Assembly: GCF_021155765.1 (NCBI RefSeq) | Contig: NC_060106.1 | Coordinates: 13,170,031 to 13,234,030, forward strand | Direction of reading: 5' to 3' | DNA: 64,000 nucleotides | Origin: Diprion similis | Lineage: Eukaryota; Arthropoda; Insecta; Hymenoptera; Diprionidae | Shown: one piece after another, positions 27,459 through 30,400 of the stretch | Layout of the letters: each line of letters opens with the position of its first letter | How positions within the stretch are numbered: position 1 is the first letter of the stretch | Notes under the pieces: generated by a model | Databases searched by the model: none | What the model saw: only the letters and a program-made list of their open reading frames with translations | What the model was told of the DNA's origin: nothing | Program-made: the position numbers and the translations under genes

Positions 27459-30400
27459 TCAGCTGCGATAAAGGGCTAAGTTTTGTGCACACCTTGCTCC
27501 TACAAGGTGACTGTATTCCCTGATTTCATCTTGATCGGCTGACGAATGTGCTTGTTTTTTGTAAACATGGTAGGGTATGATCTTTCTGTTGTAACAAACT
27601 GATACCTGTAATGAATATTACTCTATAGTGAAAAAGACTATCATATATCCAATATAAAACTGACTTTACAAATAGTAAGCAGAATATCTAGTCTAATACA
27701 TAATGAATTGCAGTATTTACCTGTGTGATATCATTGCTCAAGTTTTCATCAATAGCATCTAGATCTTCATTCAATCTGCTGTATTTTTCTTTGTCTAACT
27801 TTGGCAGGCAGTTTTCAATGTCACACCATACATATGTCTCTGGGCATAATAGTTTTGATGGACGTAGTCCAGCCTTATATCGCATTTTTGGGCATGTATG
27901 AATATAGAAGCCCATGTAATAATACTTCAGATTTGGAACTACTTTATTGAGCTGCCTCGTTAACATTATTTCTCGAAGAGAACTGCAAATGATAACTTTG
28001 TTATAAAGGAATATGTTGTAATTCGCCTGCATCTGAAAATTGTTTTGTTATAAATAAACAACTATAAGTCCAAGAACTGAATTTACTTCCGCACCCTTAT
28101 AACTATATTAAATTGACTACACTGACCCATATGTTCCTAGAGAGATGTGTGAGTAGATTGGATCGTAAAAGAAGTACACACTGGAAATGCATGATGGTAA
28201 GATATCTATTACGCCAACAGCAATTAGTTGATTATTAAGCCAGTATTGCTGATGGAAGGAACCATATCCTTGCGGCGGGCCATCAGCTGGGACCCATTTC
28301 TTAAAAATATGTATAGATAAATCAATTATTTGATTAAAGTTTGTAGCAGGACCTCAAGCATATTTGACCAAAGTGTACCTGCAACGGACTTTTGCAGAGA
28401 AACTCTGTAAATGATTGTTTGTCACATTCTTCAGCTGAATCTTTGTGAACTGCCATTTGATACTTTTTATAAAGATTTGCACTTAATTCGAAAGTATCCA
28501 GAAACTCTTCAGACGAAACGCTTACCAATTTAATCTAGAGAATTCAAACATGACTTTAATTAATATGCTTTTGTGAAAGAAACAGAAGTTTTATTATTTT
28601 TCACTGTATGAAAGGGTCGAAAATGTCAGACGAAATTATTAACCTTACTGAACAACAAAGAATTTAATCTAACTAAATGAATATTTCACTTCTAAGACAC
28701 ATAAATAAGTTTTTTTTTTGCAATTACATGGATCATAAGCCTCTTATCATTGTACACTTTGCTCCAATCTTGCATGTCTTGCTGCAATTACATCATTTAC
28801 CTTATACCACCCAACTTTTGAGTATTCTATAAATTTATAATCATTGAATCTGTTGTTAATCATGATATTCGAATACTCTGATGTTGTCATTGTTTATTAG
28901 GTTTGTGATATTTGAAGTTACCTGTAAAGGAGATTCGACAAGGAACCTTGTATACTGTTGTTGTGTAACCTGCTCAGCTCGGTCCTTGTGTATTGTCATT
29001 TGATATTTTTTGTACAATTCATAACTTTGCTCGGAGGTGTTGATGTACTCACTGCTCATTGGTGAGGTTCTAACCAGGCGCAACTGACGAGAAAAAGAAA
29101 ATTTTAGATTTGAAAAATTACGGAAAAAGGAGACTAATTTAAAAAATTTCAACCAATTGTTACTATTCGGAATTAATTAACGATTTCGGGTTTTTAATCA
29201 GATTCAAAGCTGTTGTAGTCAATAATATAAACAAAGACAGACATTTCATAATCAAAAGTGTAAGCCCTTAAAAGCAAATTCCCTAACGATAGACAAGCTT
29301 TGTTCAACTTTTTTCTAACAAAATATATTTTTAAATATTGCATAGCGAACAAAATTGGAGCAAATGTATTATGGTATTAATTATGACAGAAACAAATCAT
29401 TCAACATATTTAATTTAGTACCTCTAGTTTATTCTGTCCCACACTTTCTTCAATAAATAATTCCTCCAACGTTTTGCCAGCAGCTATTGATTTTCCTTGC
29501 TTCAACATTTCTTCAACTTCTGTTGTTGATTTTCCCATTGACAATAATTTGTTCTGTTTACGCTCCCGTCGTATAATCTTTGCTTTCTTAGGTGGTGGCT
29601 TACTTTGGTCAAAACCCATTCCTGACTTATAATCTTTACTAGGAGAGGATATCGGGGTAGGATTTTTATCATGTTTTACCTTAGCAGTAGAATAACTGCT
29701 ACCAATTACACTCTGACTATTGGTGGAATTCTTCAGGGAAGGTAATCTCAGATCAAATGTATCAGCAATTAGAGACATGTCAATTTTGGTAGCATTTTTA
29801 CGTGCTTTTTCAACTTGTTCAGCACAATTCTGAATTTGCATAGGATGGGAATCTAGAAAAAATGGATTCTCATTTTGTCAATGTTCAGTTTTACATAAAT
29901 GAATTATTCATAAAAATCAAACTAACGAAGATGTACCTGAGTCGTCTTGAAGAAGTTCATCACAAAGTGCTGTATCATTCCTTTTTAATTCACCTTTCAA
30001 AAACTTGGACATTTTTTTCAACAGCTTCTTTTGTGACTTAGATATTTTGAAACCCAATGCTTCACATCTAAGAATTAACAGTCGTCAGATTAGACAATGT
30101 AAAAATTAGATCACAACAGAGAGTTCTAAAGGAACTACTACGGTGAAACTTCTCTCAACGGACACCTCTTCATAATGAACAAGTTAGAAATTCCGAGCAG
30201 AAAATCGTAATGGAAAATATACCTCCGAATAATGGACACTTCTCTCTAGCTGAAAAGATTTCCAGTCCCAAAGGTGTCTGCTATTAAAAAGTTTCACTGT
30301 GCGAATAAATCTCTTGTTACCAAAATGCTGAAAGTCACGATTATTTCATTACTGATAATCCAAAAAAGTTATTTGGCGCTTACTTGATAGTATACATGGG

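Follow-up and report, generated by a model that had tools for sequence, protein, structure and literature searches.

In mammalian ATE1, the element R3 lies between two alternative exons, 7a and 7b, while R1 lies upstream of 7a; the primary study of how the choice between these exons is controlled is reportedly that of Kalinina et al. from 2021 (NAR 49:479). The accessible parts of other publications attribute exon 7a/7b control to the elements R1–R5 (PMC11802352, PMC8052449, PMC10790352) and describe R1 and R4 as competing for R3 (PMC11802352), and the first-pass annotation of the present locus had likewise named competing structures in mammalian ATE1 as a precedent. The spread of the human ATE1 pairs, in the portion of PMC8052449 that includes its Table 1, is 51 nt for the pair assigned to exon 7b and 952 nt for the pair assigned to exon 7a. 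Where PMC9741552 discusses convergent evolution, it lists ATE1 with tandem duplicated exon events for human, fly, and worm.

Two further arrangements are relevant for comparison. Docker-selector control of insect exons (Dscam, 14-3-3zeta, Mhc, MRP1) uses one site with alternative partners, the exclusive pairings of which loop out exons, and in the accessible portion of PMC6071210 the docker is placed in the left or the right outer intron. The same portion of that paper describes a bidirectional pairing model (srp exon 4 cluster, RIC-3, and others) in which both the upstream and the downstream exon are affected and a pseudoknot keeps the two pairs apart. No RNA structure for insect ATE1 was seen in the literature searched; most subscription journals lay outside its coverage, so such a report may exist.

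The stretch of DNA analyzed here (hereafter the window, 64,000 nt in length) contains an intact gene for ATE1, arginyl-tRNA-protein transferase, on its minus strand at 30711-27459, with nine exons of which two, a and b, are alternatives. The open frame is intact in both conceptual isoforms (509 aa with exon a, 507 aa with exon b), and each carries both domains expected of ATE1, with scores of 152.4 and 151.9 bits for ATE_C and 84.1 and 83.8 bits for ATE_N, respectively, all above the Pfam cut-offs. The ATE_C domain starts inside exon a in the conceptual protein, and exon a or exon b alone suffices for a match to it (28.7 bits for a, 28.3 bits for b). The two exons are homologous to each other and both in phase 0, i.e., a tandem pair of the 7a/7b type, and when joined to the following exon, E6, both align with a single region of human ATE1-2 (PDB), with a higher score for b (138.2 bits) than for a (125.4 bits). 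We take human ATE1 isoform 2 to be the carrier of exon 7b. Judging from homology, both exons are probably spliced, and their use is probably mutually exclusive. The reading frame is kept in transcripts that contain both alternative exons, and likewise in those that contain neither, so neither frame nor nonsense decay can enforce exclusion. Predicted U1 pairing is -8.0 at donor a and -7.1 at donor b, compared to -4.5 at the E2 donor and -5.7 at the E4 donor. Of the eight ATE1 donors, those of E3, E4, a, b, and E7 (five in all) have no G at +5, and the donors of E3, E4, and b start with GTAC.

The features referred to below are, in order along the transcript (positions are those of the window):

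29422..29852, minus strand: E4, the constitutive exon that precedes exons a and b (open frame, gene model)
29421, minus strand: E4 donor, GAG/GTACTAAA (gene model)
29349..29364, minus strand: D1, an R1-like element, TTTGCTCCAATTTTGT, located 57 nt inside the intron that precedes exon a; 16 bp with 28773-28758
28922..29083, minus strand: alternative exon a, 162 nt, 54 aa, phase 0 (gene model, ATE_C match)
28921, minus strand: exon a donor, CAG/GTAACTTC (gene model)
28752..28773, minus strand: S, an R3-like shared intronic box, GCAAGATTGGAGCAAAGTGTAC; 28773-28758 pairs with D1 and 28761-28752 with donor b
28379..28534, minus strand: alternative exon b, 156 nt, 52 aa, phase 0 (gene model, ATE_C match)
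28369..28378, minus strand: D2, an R4-like element that is the exon-b donor itself, GTACACTTTG, intron positions +1 to +10; exact complement of 28761-28752
28336..28392, minus strand: hairpin enclosing donor b, with a local folding energy of -16.7 kcal/mol and z -2.44, equalled by 4 of 200 shuffles
28127..28299, minus strand: E6, the constitutive exon that follows exons a and b (gene model)

The observation that started from this locus was an exact reverse complementarity on the ATE1 strand between the exon-b donor (28378-28369) and CAAAGTGTAC (28761-28752), in an intron between the alternative exons given as 387 nt long. Both the match and the intron length (28921-28535) were confirmed. The accompanying estimate of 4 in 10,000 for a chance match holds for one fixed 10-mer: this word has 284 + 290 = 574 occurrences on the two strands of the 269-Mb genome, and hence a chance of ~4e-4 per 387-nt intron. 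The same estimate does not carry over to a helix in any register across donor b (-3 to +10), since an equally stable gapless helix was found in 62 of 5000 shuffled introns. Within the window the matches to the 10-mer are these two only, with 0.15 expected and at least two in 1 of 100 shuffles. A perfect complement at the same spacing in real window sequence exists for 67 of 63391 10-mers, and for 6 of the 3646 that begin with GT. Perfect stems of at least 10 bp number 3 in the 1288 nt searched, against 1.8 expected from 300 shuffles, and 53 of 400 shuffles were as strong as the real sequence when the comparison was widened from the donor to the whole downstream intron. If interrupted pairing is allowed (23-nt donor window), the score of donor b was matched in 1 of 200 shuffles; the lowest count in the other 11 site-by-intron tests was 9 of 200, for acceptor b with the same intron. 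Taken alone, the match between S and donor b is modestly unusual. What makes it notable is the far stronger second partner that this box has upstream.

This partner is D1, which forms 16 continuous base pairs with S if G-U pairs are included (29364-29349 with 28773-28758). The perfect core of the helix, TTTGCTCCAAT (29364-29354) with ATTGGAGCAAA (28768-28758), overlaps the box of the first-pass annotation. At -26.6, D1-S is the strongest gapless helix across 30900-26500, where the next reaches -22.0. Its strength was equalled in 3 of 3000 and in 12 of 20,000 shuffled intron pairs, and at 7 of 2348 placements of the same geometry on both strands of the window. Within the gene, 13 neighboring or next-neighboring intron pairs were compared with their shuffles, and the pair that contains D1-S was matched in 1 of 400, in contrast to 53 to 380 of 400 for the other 12 pairs. 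Starting instead from the originally annotated box with 10 nt added on each side, pairing as strong occurred in 6 of 5000 shuffled upstream introns and in 8 of 3086 other stretches of the window. The minus strand of the window has seven helices of D1-S strength within 700 nt, D1-S itself counted, and three of these are at one place (~62.6 kb).

The donors of exon a and E4 offer S nothing comparable (-7.7 and -7.5, respectively). A second upstream site, TACACTTT (29262-29255), with 8 bp to the same box, was dropped as weak (duplex -11.6). D1 precedes exon a by a distance broadly similar to that by which S precedes exon b. Simple tandem duplication, the model for the source of competing sites in the available text of PMC6071210, was set aside by inspection only, as D1 and S are complementary, not similar.

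S is thus one element with two overlapping partners, D1 over 16 bp and donor b over 10 bp. The cores of D1-S and S-D2 have 4 nt in common (CAAA), and a predicted bulged extension of D1-S would occupy 8 of the 10 nt that donor b requires. Among 20,000 shuffles, the strength of D1-S was reached in 12, that of the donor-b helix in 726, and the overlap in 804; the three together, with an overlap of at least 4 nt, were found in none. Complementarity, overlap, and computed energies are shown directly by this analysis, as are the sequences and the gene model.

We propose a competing-pairing switch at this locus, in which S has the two partners D1 and donor b and thereby chooses exon a or exon b. Our confidence in this reading is moderate because a liberal null from genomic DNA, described below, is unfavorable to it. 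Pairing of S with D1, if it forms in the cell, would loop out exon a and leave ~280 nt rather than 887 nt between the E4 donor and the acceptor of exon b (distances from coordinates), and exon b would be used. Pairing of S with donor b would cover donor positions +1 to +10, loop out exon b, and leave ~229 nt rather than 622 nt between donor a and the acceptor of E6 (again from coordinates), and exon a would be used. The overlap of the two pairings within S should lead to the choice of a single exon, and mutual exclusion would be an effect of the RNA structure on splicing. D1-S is the predicted default, as it is stronger and transcribed first; use of exon a would come about where D1-S is delayed, opened, or blocked by a protein. 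The switch predicts double inclusion or double skipping when S is broken, and a shift toward exon a when D1 is opened. With the stronger upstream helix taken into account, what looked like a modest 10-nt coincidence becomes a plausible switch resembling that of mammalian ATE1.

Folding gives clues as to which pairing prevails, with the caveat that folds of 1151 nt are rough guides. In the partition function for 29440-28290, the mean probability is 0.91 for D1-S and ~2e-7 for S-donor b, and the value of 0.91 for D1-S is reached already with the transcript ending at 28740. The probability of S-donor b is 0.59 when 28930-28290 is folded alone, with the upstream region omitted, and only 0.08 in the whole region with D1 merely held unpaired. 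Fold energies are -209.7 with D1-S alone and -199.9 with S-D2 alone, as opposed to -195.0 or -195.4 with both forced, depending on how the overlap is shared; with both helices forced, the computed stability falls short of that with one by 4.5 to 14.7 kcal/mol, a comparison that involves an unreliable 1151-nt fold and a core overlap of 4 nt. D1-S is predicted from these models to dominate over S-donor b. Since it prevails in folding, exon b is the predicted default, and the pairing originally annotated is placed in the role of a regulated alternative. This prediction runs counter to the emphasis of the first-pass annotation on donor masking that favors the upstream exon, as the stronger helix would favor exon b. 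Its broader suggestion of structure-based mutual exclusion fares better: such control is plausible and, with D1-S, has more in its favor than that annotation could draw on, but the donor-masking model captures half of the picture.

The likeness to mammalian ATE1, so far as the accessible descriptions of that system go, lies in the gene itself, in a pair of homologous alternative exons, and in one element with an upstream and a downstream competitor. By layout only, S corresponds to R3, with an R1-like competitor upstream and an R4-like competitor downstream. The locus differs from that description in using the 5′ splice site of exon b as its downstream element, and the helix spans the exon. 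Within 30900-26500, no counterpart of R2-R5 was identified, and no second helix goes beyond -22.0. One of the helices at that value joins sequence upstream of the start codon with sequence beyond the stop codon, and the other, a GC-rich perfect helix of 10 bp, joins E2 coding sequence (30475-30466) with the intron after exon b (28356-28347). The locus shares with the docker-selector systems a single site with alternative partners and exclusive pairings that would loop out exons. Unlike the dockers in the part of PMC6071210 available, its shared site is in the central intron, in which respect S resembles mammalian ATE1, with R3 placed as above, more than it does Dscam. With the bidirectional model, as outlined in the same excerpt, it would share an influence that reaches the exons on either side, upstream and downstream, but the helices here use the same nucleotides, whereas a pseudoknot separates the pairs there.

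For the liberal null we used 20 unselected 10-kb stretches of the window's own genome, which gave 5880 placements, 252 of them AT-rich (33% GC cut). A helix at least as strong as D1-S was found at 185 of the 5880 placements and at 26 of the 252. Many of these helices are long inverted repeats, dinucleotide runs or simple repeats, or GC-rich stretches, and the cases have a mean GC content of 39%, compared to 26 to 28% in the ATE1 introns concerned. Those of at most 22 bp and ordinary complexity account for 101 of 5880 placements (36 distinct). D1-S strength, donor-b strength, and overlap coincided at 8 of 5880 placements, which come from 3 stretches, and six of the eight represent one repeated word in a single stretch (L027). 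None was among the 252 AT-rich placements, though one of the eight (in L033) falls narrowly outside the 33% GC cut. This null is far less favorable to the switch than the shuffle nulls. Searched against the own genome, the 1.4-kb region matched itself only (simple repeats and very common words are skipped by the search). S with up to 3 mismatches occurs at 2 places, its own and one other, and its reversed-pattern control also at 2; D1 with up to 1 mismatch occurs at 34 places, of which 2 are exact including its own, mildly above the 20 of its control. No repeat family for S, D1, or the surrounding 1.4 kb was seen in these own-genome searches, so the shuffles and the gene's other introns seem to be the fairer null.

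The genomic counts bear most directly on the reading that each complementarity arose by chance or is a remnant of inverted sequence, and that splice-site strength and RNA-binding proteins decide between the exons. In unselected genomic DNA, strong helices are no rarity (185 of 5880), and U1 pairing is slightly better at donor a than at donor b, both of which are consistent with this account, although donor b is not the weakest donor in the gene. We nevertheless consider it unlikely, as many of the genomic cases are repeats whereas S, D1, and their 1.4-kb surroundings belong to no repeat family seen, the 12 other intron pairs of the gene behave like their shuffles to a far greater extent, and the layout agrees with the known mammalian one. 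A somewhat less unlikely account would keep D1-S as the one functional pairing, which would loop exon a out and fix the ratio of the two exons, and treat the 10-nt match at donor b as a chance complement. It agrees with the strength of D1-S against matched nulls, with the ordinary showing of S-D2 on its own (62 of 5000, 53 of 400), and with the prediction that S-D2 is unoccupied when D1 is present. What it leaves as coincidence is that the best donor-b helix of the intron overlaps the D1 pairing (804 of 20,000 shuffles for the overlap, and 32 of 20,000 for overlap and donor energy jointly), that S-D2 exactly covers a splice site, and that interrupted pairing at donor b is matched in only 1 of 200 shuffles.

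The hairpin around donor b (28392-28336) raises a different issue, because a donor covered by a local hairpin does not need box S in order to be masked. According to the predicted structure, the hairpin would compete both with S and with U1, as a separate way of masking donor b. Its core is also found in the minimum-energy fold of the region, and donor a has no such hairpin (-1.3 kcal/mol, against -16.7 kcal/mol and 4 of 200 shuffles for donor b). Donor b might accordingly be governed by its own hairpin, opened by proteins or by transcription speed, with the long-range pairings secondary. This strikes us as decidedly improbable: local folding of this kind covered donors a and b only and the z-score of -2.44 is modest, the stem is built in part from constrained exon-end sequence, and the hairpin alone leaves mutual exclusion unexplained. 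The competing-pairing switch remains the reading that we prefer.

More tentatively, a switch of this kind may be common to the ATE1 genes of arthropods and mammals, either because it is older than the split between these lineages or because the same layout arose independently, the downstream competitor in the insect-like version being the exon-b 5′ splice site. If the same layout does control insect-like ATE1, it would represent either a very old regulatory RNA structure or repeated invention within one gene.

Several minor observations concern the same region and genome. A 12-bp perfect complement (-20.0) links E4 coding sequence at 29613-29602 with the exon-b donor region at 28374-28363, and a 9-bp perfect complement, 28570-28562 with 28364-28356, lies just before acceptor b and after donor b and would enclose exon b. 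The acceptor-b region (28554-28532) pairs with the preceding intron slightly above shuffles (-16.2, 9 of 200). Scans of genome-contig and viral-contig collections found no encoded relative. Two stretches of the own genome, L021 and L031, contain long inverted repeats that share words like AAAATGTTAGTTTTTGATGTTTTAAGAGCCCA, perhaps from an inverted-repeat mobile element. Arrays of TTAGG, which are found in many arthropods, are also present in the own genome, listed from base 5 of contig C1.
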